This document shows positions 13,887 through 49,378 of a DNA stretch of 64,000 bases, in pieces (position 1 is the first letter of the stretch; each line of letters opens with the position of its first letter). Source of the stretch: Candidatus Altimarinota bacterium (lineage in GTDB: Bacteria; Patescibacteriota; Gracilibacteria; BD1-5; UBA6164). The translations under genes were made by a program, and so were the position numbers. The notes under the pieces were generated by a model that did no database searches, was not told the DNA's origin, and was given only the letters and a program-made list of their open reading frames with translations. The stretch covers positions 597,539-661,538 of the forward strand of contig JAQTWV010000001.1 of the NCBI GenBank assembly GCA_028689115.1. Direction: 5' to 3'.

Positions 13887-14053
13887 CTTGCACGAGTATT
13901 TGTATCATATAATTCAATAGCTTTGTCTAATGATTGCTTTCAAACTTTATCAATTAAATTTATATCATCATTATCTACTTTTGTATCTGTAATTTCATCA
14001 GCATCACAAGATATTAAAAGAAATAAAAATAATATGGTAAGTAATTTTTTCAT
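13883..14053 (-). CDS. Small lipoprotein
   Basis: 56 residues. A signal peptide with lipobox (MKKLLTILFLFLLISC) places the lipidated cysteine at position 16; the mature part is an acidic 40-residue peptide (DADEITDTKVDNDDINLID) with no recognised domain. It lies 17 nt downstream of the AAAQQ-repeat protein gene and upstream of the reductase fusion, so it is probably part of the same transcript. Confidence 0.65.
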
Positions 14054-14070
14054 TGTAAAATAATTATTTA

Positions 14071-15039
14071 TTAACTAGCTTTAGTTTTAGTATTTACTCT
14101 TGCTGCGGCAGCTTGTTGTGCGGCAGCTTGTTGTGCGGCAGCTTGTTGTGCGGCAGCTTGTTGTGCGGCAGCTTGTTGTGCAGCAGCTTGTTGTGCAGCA
14201 GCTTGTTGTGCAGCAGCTTGTTGTGCAGCAGCTTGAGATGATTTTACTACTGTAGTTTTCATTTCTGCAACTTTTGCTTTTGCAGCTGCTTCTTGAGATG
14301 CTTTTAATGCTGCAGCTTTAACCTCTGCTGCTTTCATTAATGCAATTTGTTTATCTTTATTAATTTCTACAACCAAACTTTGATCAGTTGAATCAATATA
14401 AGATAATATTTGTGATTGTACATTTAAATTTACTTCCCTTAATAACAAAACATTTTTTTTGTATTTATCATACAAGTCTAGATTATCTGTATTTAACATA
14501 ACTTCATTTAAAGCAGAAATTTTTTCATTTATTGCTGTATTAGTTTTTCTTAAAAAATTTAATTTTTGAGTATCTGTAAATTTTTCATTAAGTAAATTAG
14601 ATTTAAAATTAGAAAATAATGATTTTATTTTTTCTCTCTCAAAAGAAGTGATAACAACATCTGCTCTCACTGAAGAATCTATTTTATTTGGAACTACAAC
14701 ATTTGAATTTACTGATGTAGTAGAATTACTATTTACTGAAATAACTTCTGGCACTACAATTGGAGTTACAACTGGTTGATTTTGTACTTGATTTATATAA
14801 TTTTTTCTATCATATTTATCGTCTTCATCTTCATATTCATTGTCTTCATCTTCATATTCATTGTCTTCATCTTCATCAGCATGAGTATTTCAAATAAATC
14901 AAAAATCAATTTTATTTACAGTCCAAAATCAATTTAAATTATTATTTTGTAAAGAAATAATTCATCAAAATGATAATGCCGTTATAACAAAAATACTTCA
15001 AACAGCTATTAACTTAACTATATTTTTTTTATTTTTCAT
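14071..15039 (-). CDS. Membrane-anchored repeat protein (EDEDNEY and AAAQQ repeats)
   Basis: 322 residues. An N-terminal anchor (KNIVKLIAVGSIFVITALSF) is followed by an acidic EDEDNEY-type repeat (residues about 55-75), a helical middle with coiled-coil character (KQIALMKAAEVKAAALKASQ), and eight tandem AAAQQ units before the Lys/Arg tail VNTKTKAS. The repeats are encoded by tandem 15-bp DNA units. No family recognised; the shape fits an extracytoplasmic stalk or spacer. It is encoded between the two-component system and a small lipoprotein. Confidence 0.75.
14101..14235. repeat. Tandem 15-bp coding repeats (AAAQQ)
   Basis: Nine near-identical 15-bp units (core GCGGCAGCTTGTTGT on the plus strand). 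The left five carry gcggca and the right four gcagca. This block structure indicates recent slippage or unequal exchange. Units are a multiple of three, so length changes keep the reading frame. Confidence 0.9.
14818..14878. repeat. Tandem coding repeat (EDEDNEY)
   Basis: A roughly 21-bp unit (tcttcatcttcatattcattg and variants) recurs about three times and encodes the acidic EDEDNEY segment of the membrane-anchored protein. Confidence 0.75.
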
Positions 15040-43958: not shown

Positions 43959-46900
43959 TTAACAATTTTTTTCTAGTTTTCAAGCACATTTTTCCCACTC
44001 ATTTTTTTGACTATCATAGTAAAATATAGGTATTGCTATTAGTGTCAAAATAGCACTTGAAGATAATCACCAAACTATACTCCGTGCAAGTCAGCTCCAA
44101 ACAGGATCTGAAGTTATTTTAATTGCTCAAAATATAGCAGAAATACTTGTAAGCATTATTGGCATAAATCTGATATAACCAGCATTTATAATAGCTTTTT
44201 CTATAGTCCAACCTTTTCTTTTCAATATATCAATATAATCAACAAGCAATATTGCATTTCAAACTACAATTCAAGCTAAACTTATAACTCAAATCATTCA
44301 AGTTGCATTAAAATACTCATTTTTTAATAAATACAATATTGAAAATCCTGGAAATATTCCAAAAAATCAAAGTAAAAATGGAAGCATAATTATTCAAGCA
44401 ACTCCAAAACTTCTAAATTGTCATACTATTAAAAAATATATTGCTATTAGTGCCAAAATCATAGCAGTTCATAAATCTCTAAAAGTATCCATTGTAAGTT
44501 TCCATTCTCAATCCCATTCTAGTTTATATATTTTTCAATCTTCTATTCATCTGTATTCTATTCCATAAAATCATGATTTTATAACTTCATATTTTTGGTC
44601 AAGAAATTCGCTTGATTTAAGTATAGACATCAACTTAACAATTGGATAAACTACTGAATTATCTCACATTTCTGAATAAATAAAATTTGTTTTTTCTCTA
44701 GAGTCAGTATTTATTTCTGGATTTACAAATTCATAATTAATATCTGCAATACTAGAAAGTGGAATTTTAATTCAATCTTTATTTGTAAATCTTATATTTT
44801 CAAGAAGACTTAGTGTTTCACTTTGTTCATTTTTAACTCATAAGATTATATTTGTTGGTTCAAGTGATGAACTATCTTTTATAAGACTTATATTTACGCT
44901 ATTTTTAGCAATTGCAAGAGTATTAGCAATTTGTTCCACATCAAGTCAAGCAAGTGCAATTGCTTCATGATCAAGTTTTACATTTATTTTTCTATAAGTT
45001 GTTGAAAGTGATGTATTTAAATCTGCTAGACGTTCTGAAACTTCTAGTTTTTTTACTTCATCAAATACTTTTTTTGTAAAAATATCTAAATTTTCAGCTT
45101 CATCACCTCACTTCAATTTCATCATAAAAGTAGCTCTAACTGGAGGTCCTGGAGGATCTTCTAAAAGTCTAAGTTTAACATCTGGATATTTTTCAAGTAA
45201 ATATGCAGTTAAAAGTGGTCTTATACTAAAAGTATAATTTTCAGATTTAATTCTGTTTTCATTTTCCTCCTTTGGAATTAGATTAATTCTTGAAGAAATT
45301 TGATACTCTTCTACCCTATTTAATCATCATCTAAAAAGATTGGCAAAATCTCACATAAATGGCGTTCAAATAGTAGAAACTACACTATCAGCTATATCTA
45401 AATTAGCTGGAAGATTATAATTATTTAAAAAGAAATTTTCTATATCTTTTTCTATATTAAACATTTCACTTACACTTGTTCATCTAATTCAATCAACCCA
45501 TAAATATACTTGATCCTTATCAGATTTTGGAAGCATACGAGCTTTAAATATTCAAAAATATATTGGTAAAATCATAACCAAAACAAGTGAAACCCAAAAT
45601 GTAGATTTAAATATTTTTCTGTTTCTAATTGCTTTTTTATCATCTCTAATAAAAAAGTTCATAAATCTTAGATATAGTTTTCTTATATCAAACCTAGATT
45701 CTTTTTTTACATGATGAGGCTCATTTGTATCTATATTTTTTGTAGTGATGTATGAAACCCATGGATTTATTGAAAATGCTACAATTATAGAAAAAAGTAA
45801 TGCAACAATTGCAAATTTAGGAATTGGTCACATATATTCTCACATCATCCCAGTTACTGCAAACATTCAAGCAAATGAAAGTACTTTTGTAATCGTAGAT
45901 AAGATAACTCCACTTCAAACTTCATTTACTGATTCCAAAATTGCTTCCAATTTATTTTTTCAAGTATGTATTCTCTCTTCTAAGTGTCTATGAATATTTT
46001 CTACAACTACAATTGAGTCATCAACAAGCATTCAAATTACTAAAATCAATGCAAAAAGTGAAATCCTATTTATGTTATATCAAACTATATAAGAATACAA
46101 AAAAACCAATGACAATATTATAGGAATTGAAGTTGCTGTATTTAAAGCATCTTTCCATCAAAGAAATAAAACTAAGATAACAACTACTATGATTATAGAT
46201 TCAATTAAATCTGTAATAAGATGACTTGTTGCTAACTGAGCTTCTGCTCATTCATCTTGAATTATTTCTACTTTTACATCTTTTGGAAGTTCTTTTATTA
46301 TCTCAATCATGCTTGATTTGATATCATTTGTAACAAAAACTCCATTAGTTCAAACTTGCTTTCAAATTCAAAGTAAAACACTATTATTTCAAATACTTTC
46401 TTTCTTTGAAAAAAGACTGTATTTTGAAATTTTTTTATCTCAAATACTTATTTCAGAGACATCTCAAAGATATAAAAGATTTCAATTATTATTTGATATA
46501 ACTATTTTTTTAAGTGATTCTATATCTTCTACTTTTCAAGTAGTTTCCAAAAAAACTCTATCCTTATCATTAAGAGTAAAACTTCCATTTGGTAAGTTTA
46601 GATTATTTTTTTGAAGCACTGAATATATTTGCATAACATCAGTATTTCTTGCTTCAACTTTTCCTAAATCTAAATTAATAACTATATTTTTATTCATTCA
46701 TCAAACTATATCCAAAGTTGTTACATTTTTTATAGTTTTTAATTTATTTTTTATTATATTTGCTATTTGACGAAGATAGATTTGTTCTTCACTTGTGGAA
46801 AGAGTAGAAACATTAGTATTATCCTTGTTATCATAATAAATAGCATAAGTTATTTGTGGTAATTCTTCTGGATTTATAGTTGTAACAACTGGATTTCAAA

Positions 46901-47273
46901 CTCATAATGGTTTTAAATCTAAATTATCATTTATTTTTTGATTAAGTCTAATCTTTGCTTTTTCTGAATCTTCTCAAACTTTAAATTTAGCCATAAGTCA
47001 GGCATAATTATCTCAAGCAATAGAATAAACTTCATCAATTCATTCTATTTCCATCAATTTATTTTCAAATGGAGCAACAATATATTTAGAAATCTCATCG
47101 TTACTTAATCCATTTGCTGGAACAAATATATTAAATGCTGGAACAATAATAGTAGGATTATACTGTTTTGGAAGTATTATATAACTTCATATTCCAGAAA
47201 TAAGTATCACAATAATCAAAACAACTGTAAGTTTTGAGTTTTGTATAAAAAATTTAGCTATATTACTAAACAT
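43959..47273 (-). CDS. RND-family efflux transporter (AcrB/MexB-like)
   Basis: 1104 residues, slightly longer than AcrB (1049). N-terminal helix KLTVVLIIVILISGIGSYII, porter domains (ANGLSNDEISKYIVAPFENK), RND helices with the proton-relay motif LILVIGMLVDDSIVVVENIH (acidic pair DD) and in the second half LAGIVVGNAILLVDYID. It exports toxic compounds by proton antiport together with the fusion protein upstream. Patescibacteria lack a typical outer membrane and no TolC is in view, so the tripartite architecture is an open question. The GC-rich mini-gene lies in the 258-nt gap to the upstream fusion-protein gene. Confidence 0.95.
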
Positions 47274-47300: not shown

Positions 47301-47327
47301 TTGACAATTATTTTTTTTATTTATAAT
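47301..47327 (+). promoter_or_regulatory. Sigma70-like promoter of the GC-rich mini-gene
   Basis: TTGACA at 47301-47306 and TATAAT at 47322-47327 with 15 bp between (short of the usual 17). Expected start near 47334, at the small palindrome GTCAATTTTGAC. It reads against the efflux operon. Confidence 0.6.
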
Positions 47328-47347
47328 GAAAAAGTCAATTTTGACAT

Positions 47348-47364
47348 GTTTGGGAGACCAAAAA
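47348..47364 (+). other. GNRA-type hairpin in the leader of the mini-gene
   Basis: TTTGG, loop GAGA, CCAAA lies in the short leader 1-2 nt upstream of the A-run preceding the ATG, so it could cover the ribosome-binding region. No Shine-Dalgarno sequence is visible outside it. Confidence 0.5.
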
Positions 47365-47365
47365 A

Positions 47366-47485
47366 ATGGCTGCATACAAAAGTGGTAAGATGAAGAAGGC
47401 TGAAATCAAAGCTGCTCGTGAAGCAAAGCGTAAACAAAAACAAAATGGGGGAACCCCCAGTCATTGCCGTTATCGTTACGGATAA
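47366..47485 (+). CDS. GC-rich mini-gene: 39-residue basic peptide
   Basis: 39 residues: MAAYKSGKMKKAEIKAAREA, then KRKQKQNGGTPSHCRYRYG. Counted by hand the ORF is 43% GC, far above the surroundings. It has no TGA, four CGT arginines and GGT/GGG/GGA glycines, unlike nearly every neighbour. It forms an amphipathic, strongly basic helix, then a turn, then SHCRYRYG. A hairpin GGGGGAACCCCC lies at codons 27-31, and CCGT...ACGG near the stop. Own promoter, leader hairpin and terminator. It lies antisense in the gap between the fusion-protein and RND genes. I recognise no family; an RNA element with incidental coding is possible. Confidence 0.6.
   Translation: MAAYKSGKMKKAEIKAAREAKRKQKQNGGTPSHCRYRYG
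47445..47458 (+). other. Hairpin GGGGG-AA-CCCCC inside the mini-gene
   Basis: Five G, AA, five C is the strongest GC hairpin in the window, at codons 27-31 of the basic peptide. It could pause a ribosome or RNA polymerase, or protect mRNA ends, as hairpins do in some small-peptide mRNAs. Confidence 0.5.
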
Positions 47486-47500
47486 AAAGGAGGAAAGAGA

Positions 47501-47527
47501 AAAAGGTTGCTACGGCGACCTTTTTTG
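47501..47527 (+). terminator. Hairpin terminator of the mini-gene
   Basis: AAAAGGTTGC, loop TACG, GCGACCTTTTTT (one G·U pair). The UACG tetraloop is of the stable UNCG class. This separates the mini-gene from the end of the fusion-protein gene. Confidence 0.88.
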
Positions 47528-47530
47528 CTT

Positions 47531-49378
47531 TTATTCTACCTTTTCACCATCATAAAAATTATCTTTTCATTCTGTTATAACTATATCTCATGATTTTAAT
47601 CATATTATTTCAGAAAATCTATCATTTGATTTAACTATATCTACCTTTTTAAAAATAAGTGTATTATCCTGATTTAAAACATAAACTCAAGGAATCATAT
47701 ATTTAGAAACAATTGCAGAATTTGGAACAAGAATACTATCAAAATCTCATATATTACTCAAAAAAACTTTTGTATAAGTTCATATTTTTAAATTATAATT
47801 ATTTTTGAAACTTATCTCTACCTTTGTTTTTTTAGTAATAAAATCCTTACTTGGATAAATCATACTAATTTTAGCTTTTACTTGTTTATCATATCAATCA
47901 ACATCAAGTAATATATCTTGTCATAAAACCAAGTTTTGCAAAACTTCATCTCAAACTAATATATTTAATTTCAAATTTTTTTCATCAGATATAGTAAAAA
48001 CTGGCATTCATCATCAAATAACTTGTCATAATTCTACATTTTTTGAAACAATTACTCCAGAAATAGGACTTCTAATTTCTCAAGAATTTATCATAACAGA
48101 AGAATTATTTTGTTGTCCTAAAGCTTCTTTTATTTTTAAATTTATTTCATCAATTTGTGCTTGTTTTTGTTTTTTTAATGATTCAATTCAAATGGCAACT
48201 TCATTAATTTGAGAATTTGCAATCTCTGTTTTGGTTTGAGTTTCATTTATTTTTGCATCATTACTCACCTTGTATTGATCATATGTTTTTTGAGCTAATT
48301 CAACTTGTTTTTCAAGTAACTCTAATTGTAATTTCTTTTGATCATAAAAATTTGAAAGTGATTGTTTACTTCATTTTAATCATAAAAAATATTCTCAAGA
48401 AACTGTAATTAAACTTGATTCTATATTAGTTCAAAAAGTTGCTATAGTATTTTTATATCAATCAAGTGTTTCTTTTGATAAATATGTATTTTCAACCGTG
48501 TTATCTAAAACATCATAAGTTATACTCAACAATACTTTTATACTTTCAGCAATTTGTTCTCATAAATCAAGAGTTTCAAGTAATACTTCATTACTAGGAT
48601 TTTTATCTTCTATATTTTCATCATACATTTTTTTATACTTTTTGTATAATTCATTTGTTTTAGAAAATTGTATTTTTGAATCATTGTAAAATCATGATTT
48701 TTTTGCACTTAAATATATTTCATAATCATTGTTCTTGTTTTTATTTGCTTCTGTTACTCATAAAATATTATCTATAAAATTTATAATATTAGTATCCAAA
48801 ATAACTGAAGAAACAATTGCATTTCTTGAATTATCATAAATATTTTTTTCTTTTGTATCAAAAATAATTTTTGTATTTTCTAGATTTAATTTTGCAGTTT
48901 CAAGTCAAGTAAGCGCAGTATTTAGATTACTAGAAGCTATATTTTTTACATCTTCAAGTCAAGTAAAAATTCAAGTTTTTCAAATATTAGCTTGATTTTT
49001 TTTCTCTTCCATAGCTTTTATTTGCTCATCAAACATAGAAGCAGTAGAATTTTTTAAATCTTCTAATCAAGAAACTATACTTGATGAAGTACTATACCCT
49101 ACTTTTGCTTCCATAGAATCAAGAGATAAAAGTAAATCTCAAGCTTTTACATAATCTCATTCTTTTGCGTAAATACCAACTACTTCTCATCACAATTTAG
49201 TTGAAAGATTTGTGGTATTTTCTCACTCTAAATATCAAACATATGTACTAAAATTATCAACACTACCTGTAAATACACTTCAAGTTTGAAAATATTTTTG
49301 TGGTGTTATAACATTATTTTCATTTGAACAAGAAAATAATGTTAAGCTAAAAAAAATTATTGTTATTAGTTTTTTCAT
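47531..49378 (-). CDS. RND membrane-fusion protein (HlyD-like lipoprotein)
   Basis: 615 residues. Lipoprotein signal (MKKLITIIFFSLTLFSC). Then EGENTTNLSTKLGGEVVGIY and AKEGDYVKAGDLLLSLDSME, the biotinyl-lipoyl-like half. A very long helical hairpin (about 150-370) follows, then GEIRSPISGVIVSKNVELGQ, the second lipoyl half, and a beta-barrel. The adaptor between RND pump and an outer channel. It is unusually long because of the extended coiled hairpin. Encoded 3 nt downstream of an ArsR-type regulator and upstream of the RND gene. Confidence 0.92.

Follow-up and report, generated by a model that had tools for sequence, protein, structure and literature searches.

The genome studied here reads UGA as glycine and, as we are confident in stating, also contains a class of genes written in the standard code. 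A 39-codon mini-gene located between the two genes of an efflux operon, which itself ends in TAA, probably belongs to this class, as judged from its codon style and architecture and from counterparts in other genera that end in TGA. Taking the sequence comparisons together, we lean toward a reading in which the mini-gene is a standard-code expression cassette, one of about 20, that would work in the cytoplasm of a partner or prey cell. An earlier sequence-only reading of the window (the whole 64,000-nucleotide stretch of DNA that was analysed) was borne out in part: the promoter, the ORF, the terminator and the codon use stood, and the RNA loops it described were not conserved.

Layout and conservation of the mini-gene

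The unit spans positions 47301-47526 on the plus strand of the window and is present as a single copy in the genome. It lies between two genes on the minus strand, an RND efflux pump gene (43959-47273) and an HlyD-like MFP gene (47531-49378), the latter ending just past the mini-gene terminator. These flanking genes are rich in in-frame TGA codons (54 and 35, respectively) and are therefore read with code 25. The proposed promoter is real in that the -35 hexamer TTGACA (47301-47306) and the -10 hexamer TATAAT (47322-47327) are both exact, though the spacer is only 15 nt. The former is found as the same TTGACAATT throughout the genus members, and the latter is kept in all six. A hairpin, GUCA-AUUU-UGAC (47334-47345), is expected at the start of the transcript and contains a covarying pair, U-A in this species and in a second species, G004, and C-G in four relatives. 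The Shine-Dalgarno sequence is GGGAG (47352-47356), as it is in G004; four relatives have GGAGG or GGAGAC in this position. The ORF itself (47366-47485) runs from ATG to TAA and encodes the 39-aa peptide MAAYKSGKMKKAEIKAAREAKRKQKQNGGTPSHCRYRYG; all six genus members end it in TAA. Between the stop codon and the terminator there is a GGAGG motif (47489-47493), found in 6/6 genus members, as against none of the 57 ordinary genes with terminators. The intrinsic terminator AAAAAGGTTGCTACGGCGACCTTTTTT (47500-47526), with the stem-loop GGUUGC-UACG-GCGACC, follows at a stop-to-hairpin gap of about 14-20 nt (21 in the G004 ortholog).

Each of the other five genomes of the genus has an ortholog, in the same MFP-RND slot and in the same antisense orientation. 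In the close pair G005/G003, 11 changes are synonymous and 7 non-synonymous (pS 0.47, pN 0.08), and this predominance of synonymous changes indicates that the mini-gene encodes a peptide. Taken together with the orthologs at the same place in five genomes, it also excludes a chance ORF. The 39-codon ORF for a basic peptide is thus real, as the orthologs and the third-codon changes attest. Between this species and its relatives the synonymous sites are nearly saturated (pS 0.74-0.78), and the codon style of the mini-gene has been kept nonetheless. Four close orthologs share the C-terminal consensus NNGGLTPSH[CS]RRYR, and the G004 version is shortened (MAKYNPNKQKRVDKKDARNKRRQK). The peptide is basic, and its close forms have the motif G-x-x-P-S/P-H; a guess from composition is that it probably binds nucleic acid or the ribosome.

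Conservation of the RNA structure is more selective. The 5'-end hairpin, the terminator stem and the GGAGG after the stop are conserved in the genus, whereas this species alone has the hairpin in the ORF and the GNRA and UNCG loops. Thus, the GNRA leader hairpin UUUGG-GAGA-CCAAA does exist (47349-47362) without being shared, and the UNCG-type terminator holds as a terminator whose stem is kept in the relatives while its sequence changes. The supposed GGGGG-AA-CCCCC hairpin is present as a sequence, GGGGGAACCCCC (47447-47458, codons GG-TP). A 2-nt loop is sterically impossible, and the hairpin could at most be GGGG-GAAC-CCCC; at this site the relatives carry GGTGGAYTGACNCC, which does not form such a hairpin, and the element is absent from G004. 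The proposed check of codon against base-pair conservation accordingly upheld the coding pattern and did not uphold the pairing of the ORF hairpin. A structured RNA is not indicated, as the unit had no Rfam match at the gathering score and the ORF hairpin is not conserved; a riboswitch was rejected on the same grounds. The comparison with arfA also fails, because the hairpin before the stop is missing from all relatives and a stop codon is present; unlike genes of the ArfA type, which yield truncated peptides, the mini-gene has no conserved hairpin before its stop.

Searches of Pfam and NCBIfam profiles with the peptide gave no match, and the best PDB match was not significant (E 6.1), by which a known small or ribosomal protein was rejected. 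In PHROGs the best match had an E value of 0.0074 over 17 residues and involved one member only. A phage gene was rejected as well: the peptide and two sister cassettes had no relatives in viral contigs, and two cassette proteins had none in phage records. No peptide homologs were found by sequence outside the genus, whose named members are Candidatus Gracilibacteria and not the Absconditabacteria that had been assumed as relatives. Weak matches within the phylum were inspected and judged to be due to chance, except for L013. This locus (genome G063, C63:14839-14946, minus strand) is an orphan gene for a 36-aa basic peptide similar to that of the mini-gene, and it ends in TGA followed by GGGAGGA. 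A structured-looking region lies downstream of it, and no clear relative of L013 was seen in 77 genomes of the order.

Codon style and the cassette class

In the long ORFs of the genome, glycine is encoded by TGA in 72% of cases and arginine by AGA/AGG in 95%. In the genes for EF-Tu, EF-G and 11 ribosomal proteins, arginine is AGA/AGG in 143 of 143 cases and never CGN, and 43 of 197 glycines are TGA. The mini-gene, pooled over five species, has CGN for all 24 arginines, GGN for all 13 glycines and no TGA, at a GC content of 0.43-0.44 in genomes of 23% GC; throughout the genus its arginines are CGN and its glycines GGN. In the present species the ORF contains no TGA, every arginine is CGT, and the measured GC content of 44% (genome 23.3%) agrees with the 43% counted by hand earlier. 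The codon style of the mini-gene is therefore neither that of the genome nor that of its highly expressed genes. The suggestion that the ORF is very highly expressed does not hold, because the elongation factor and ribosomal protein genes, with AGA/AGG at 143/143 arginines, indicate that CGT is not a high-expression codon of this cell.

The same counts bear on the idea that the mini-gene encodes an ordinary, highly expressed small protein of Gracilibacteria that acts on ribosomes or nucleic acids, or else a dual-function RNA, with GC-rich codons serving mRNA structure. The strong promoter hexamers, the conserved 5' hairpin and the basic composition would suit it. However, CGN is used by none of the high-expression genes checked, the structure in the ORF is not conserved, and the gene is confined by sequence to one genus, which makes this explanation very improbable.

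It should be noted that the arginine tRNAs found in the genome have the anticodons TCT, CCT and CCG, plus an unusual GCG in place of ACG, and that a tRNA(UCA), which ARAGORN labels SeC, is presumably the tRNA-Gly that reads UGA. An island of GC 0.58 at positions 14046-14336 of the window is made up of repeats rich in Ala and Gln and lies within a longer ORF (C3:611612-612622).

The whole genome was scanned for units made of promoter, SD, ORF and terminator, as well as for genes that precede a strong terminator. This gave about 20 monocistronic, GC-rich cassettes, the mini-gene probably among them. They have their own promoter and SD, a TGA-free ORF with GGN glycines and many CGN arginines, an end in TAA, TAG or TGA, and a terminator 6-33 nt past the stop. 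In about half of them a TGA end stands shortly before the hairpin, with no in-frame TAA or TAG between. CGN makes up 47 of the 110 arginine codons of the class (43%), compared with 498 of 9370 in the genome (p 8e-30) and 0 of 143 in the high-expression genes (p 9e-21), and the spacing from stop to hairpin also differs between the class and ordinary genes (p 9e-7). The cassettes are scattered over the chromosome with no tie to efflux genes. Contamination was rejected, since they are embedded in long AT-rich contigs in two independent assemblies.

The list was partly selected for lack of internal TGA, and the genome's own highly expressed genes (S-layer, L7/L12) likewise avoid TGA; zero internal TGA was therefore rejected as the sole mark of the class. 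The interchange of end codons, the CGN usage and the family-wide results for the PgsA-like gene are independent of this selection, or depend on it only in part. In some of the cassettes on the list, C3:870873 for example, the codons used are rich in AGA or in AT.

Among the cassettes with an assignable product is an acyl carrier protein gene (ACP; C3:787485-787736, minus strand; TIGR00517, 89 bits; GC 0.44), with an ortholog in L185; of 48 genomes of the family, only 3 yielded an ACP. A second is a PgsA-like CDP-alcohol phosphatidyltransferase gene (C1:56280-57026, minus strand; loci L260-L272), whose TIGR00560 score of 78.7 bits is below the model cut-off. Here and in the genus-mates L261 and L263, its stop codon is followed, ahead of the terminator, by the same GGAGG as in the mini-gene. 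The other members include an antiporter of the NhaD family, a protein of 282 aa that is hydrophobic over a stretch near its N-terminus, and small orphans. A 66-aa cassette protein would end in KGLIK if TGA is a stop and would continue as KGLIKGFFDYEK if TGA is read through; for ACP the corresponding sequences are KPKLA and KPKLAGKK. Two tandem TGA-ended cassettes on the plus strand at C3:460787-461318 have an identical terminator sequence and are perhaps duplicated. Also, a GC-rich intergenic region at C3:724838-725226 contains short ORFs that recur (MKIIALAAYA, MRHIAFA), along with repeats of the unit "ACTTGTGAAAACAAGTTTTTCTAACC", and has no Rfam match.

TGA at the ends of cassettes

The genome of the second species, G004, was taken in stretches and compared with the present one. 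Nine ortholog pairs had a terminal TGA in at least one species. Four of these have TGA in both (ACP and the 66-aa, 40-aa and 282-aa proteins), and in five TGA is paired with TAA or TAG: the 101-aa protein (TAG here, TGA in G004), the 76-aa protein and the CDP-alcohol phosphatidyltransferase (TAA here, TGA in G004), and the 62-aa and 120-aa proteins (TGA here, TAA in G004). The ACP gene is syntenic in G004, downstream of glutamate dehydrogenase, and 67% identical; its TGA occupies the identical position in both species, and after it come differing sequence and a terminator whose stem has changed in a compensatory way. Because TGA is swapped with TAA or TAG between orthologs, and unconserved sequence and a terminator follow, it acts as a stop in the class. 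Judging from these comparisons, TGA is a stop codon within the class and a glycine codon outside it. As a control, 712 ordinary genes were considered, of which 3 had a TGA at a displaced end and none had a TGA-plus-terminator end; the 12,475 in-frame TGAs of ordinary genes align with TGA (80%), GGN (10%) or other codons (9%). Ordinary genes with a terminator close behind end in TAA or TAG in 57 cases and in TGA in none. RF2 was not found in the present genome or in G004, and in each of them RF1 alone carried the release-factor GGQ motif. As neither assembly is complete, an RF2 gene could have been overlooked, although this is unlikely for both.

The main rival to expression in a partner is that the cassettes are expressed at home and that UGA near the 3' end terminates translation in a position-dependent manner, through tmRNA, a rescue factor, or RF1 acting at the end of the transcript. 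Stop codons behave in this position-dependent way in ciliates whose codes are ambiguous. Every TGA end of the class is near a terminator, and tmRNA is present in the genome. However, the control genes with terminators are never TGA-ended, and this mechanism leaves unexplained why CGN arginines and GC-rich codons have been kept over a dS of about 1. We consider it unlikely.

The rates of change are relevant to the origin of the class. Its dS values are 0.66-1.5, compared with a median of 0.62 for ordinary genes, and dN/dS is 0.13-0.32 in 6 of the 8 pairs scored (0.13 for ACP), with 0.77 for the 76-aa orphan and one pair saturated. By these values most cassettes are old and under purifying selection. 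A foreign nature of the mini-gene, one of two options in the earlier reading, is apt only for its code and codon style; the unit evolves under constraint and goes back at least to the origin of the genus. An alternative is that the cassettes are horizontally acquired or mobile genes from prey, phages or plasmids, still with the code and codon use of their donors. Their GC content and codon style are indeed donor-like, differing cassettes occupy the same MFP-RND slot across genera, and phages of Gracilibacteria compatible with code 11 are known (PMC10746230). The GC-rich NhaD also fits, being 90-98% identical between species and limited to three genus members. On the other side, ACP is syntenic in both species, with a dS at least that of vertical genes and a dN/dS of 0.13, and the mini-gene orthologs of six species keep CGN and GC-rich codons in 23% GC genomes; nor were relatives found in viral contigs (peptide and two sister cassettes) or in phage records (two cassette proteins). 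Acquisition is thus slightly less likely still than termination at home.

Beyond the two genomes compared, a search of the family for the PgsA-like gene gave 13 genomes, from 6 genera, in which the gene lacks internal TGA, and in 5 of them it ends in TGA; the single TGA-containing match, from a seventh genus, is a distant homolog (29% identity). The NhaD family occurs in two styles, with 0 TGA or with 19-28 TGA. In other genera of the family, MFP and RND are often separated by no more than 12-80 nt, with no antisense ORF between them. In the genera g10, g5, g4 and g20 the gap holds an antisense ORF of different sequence. Such ORFs are TGA-free and TGA-ended in two of three genomes of g10, in one of two of g5 and in g4, with no TAA or TAG before the terminator, and the RND genes of these genomes use TGA as glycine. 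These TGA-ended ORFs beside RND genes with TGA as glycine were the first sign of TGA as a stop in such units.

The reuse of the slot in four other genera and the conserved location in the genus would also agree with an antisense element of a noncontiguous MFP-RND operon, in which base pairing between the mini-gene mRNA and the operon transcript would set the level of RND relative to MFP. Noncontiguous operons are a known architecture, and the menE-menC-MW1733-ytkD operon of S. aureus likewise has a gene opposite to, and between, operon genes (PMC7154746). In contrast to the latter, sister cassettes are found here at many other chromosomal sites unrelated to the MFP-RND operon. Many relatives have MFP and RND at the short distance given above and no mini-gene, and the codon style is left unexplained. 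Antisense regulation is possible as a secondary reading; as an explanation of the unit it is improbable.

Possible expression in a partner cell and known systems

Returning to the standard-code reading, genes that have remained functional for this long with UGA as their sole stop have to be translated in a setting where UGA terminates. The simplest setting of this kind would be the cytoplasm of a bacterium, partner or prey, that uses the standard code, into which the cassette DNA (or mRNA) would be delivered, and the peptide of the mini-gene would act inside that cell. We give roughly even weight to expression of the cassettes in a standard-code partner, which the end codons and codon style suggest. 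Relatives of this bacterium live on and consume other bacteria (PMC8080830, PMC13059738).

The candidate delivery route is the conjugation-type (type IV) secretion apparatus of Patescibacteria. This T4SS is derived from conjugation, its cargo is unknown, a relaxase is usually absent, and its co-option for non-conjugative roles has been proposed (PMC12102498). The present case is similar in belonging to the same phylum and in having a VirD4-like protein encoded in the genome. A VirD4/TraG-type DNA-transfer ATPase was detected (PF02534, 45 bits), and VirD4/TraG/HerA-like ATPases, candidate T4SS coupling proteins, are encoded at C4:54959-57757 (minus strand), C3:727952-730384 (plus strand) and C3:75261-77738 (plus strand). 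A shallow look for a relaxase or a delivery signal found none.

The T-DNA of Agrobacterium is carried by one cell, has the expression signals of another and is delivered by a conjugation-type system. The cassettes are similar in that their code and codon style (interchange of TGA, TAA and TAG; CGN) are those of a standard-code recipient and not of the carrier. Unlike T-DNA, they are dispersed, the recipient would be bacterial, and neither borders nor a relaxase were seen. The code-11-compatible phages of Gracilibacteria resemble the cassettes in their code-25 setting, in having no in-frame TGA and in being readable in a standard-code cell. Those phages are viral genomes with stacked stop codons at gene ends, whereas the cassettes are chromosomal, scattered and shared between species, and many of them have TGA as the only stop before the terminator (PMC10746230). 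In the literature searched, phages of these bacteria were the only case noted in which a code-25 setting has genes that the standard code can read.

Should the cassettes be read at home, the meaning of UGA would have to depend on its place, glycine within a gene and stop where a transcript ends, a kind of code that would be new for bacteria. We propose, somewhat more tentatively than expression in a partner as such, that this recoded bacterium may keep a second, standard-code gene set for transfer to and expression in a partner, the code marking the partner-directed genes, among them those for small basic peptides, ACP, a phosphatidyltransferase and an antiporter. If the cassettes are read in the partner, the difference in code would be a natural tag that lists the partner-directed genes of a predator or epibiont from sequence alone, and the orphan conjugation-derived secretion system of Patescibacteria would gain a concrete candidate cargo.
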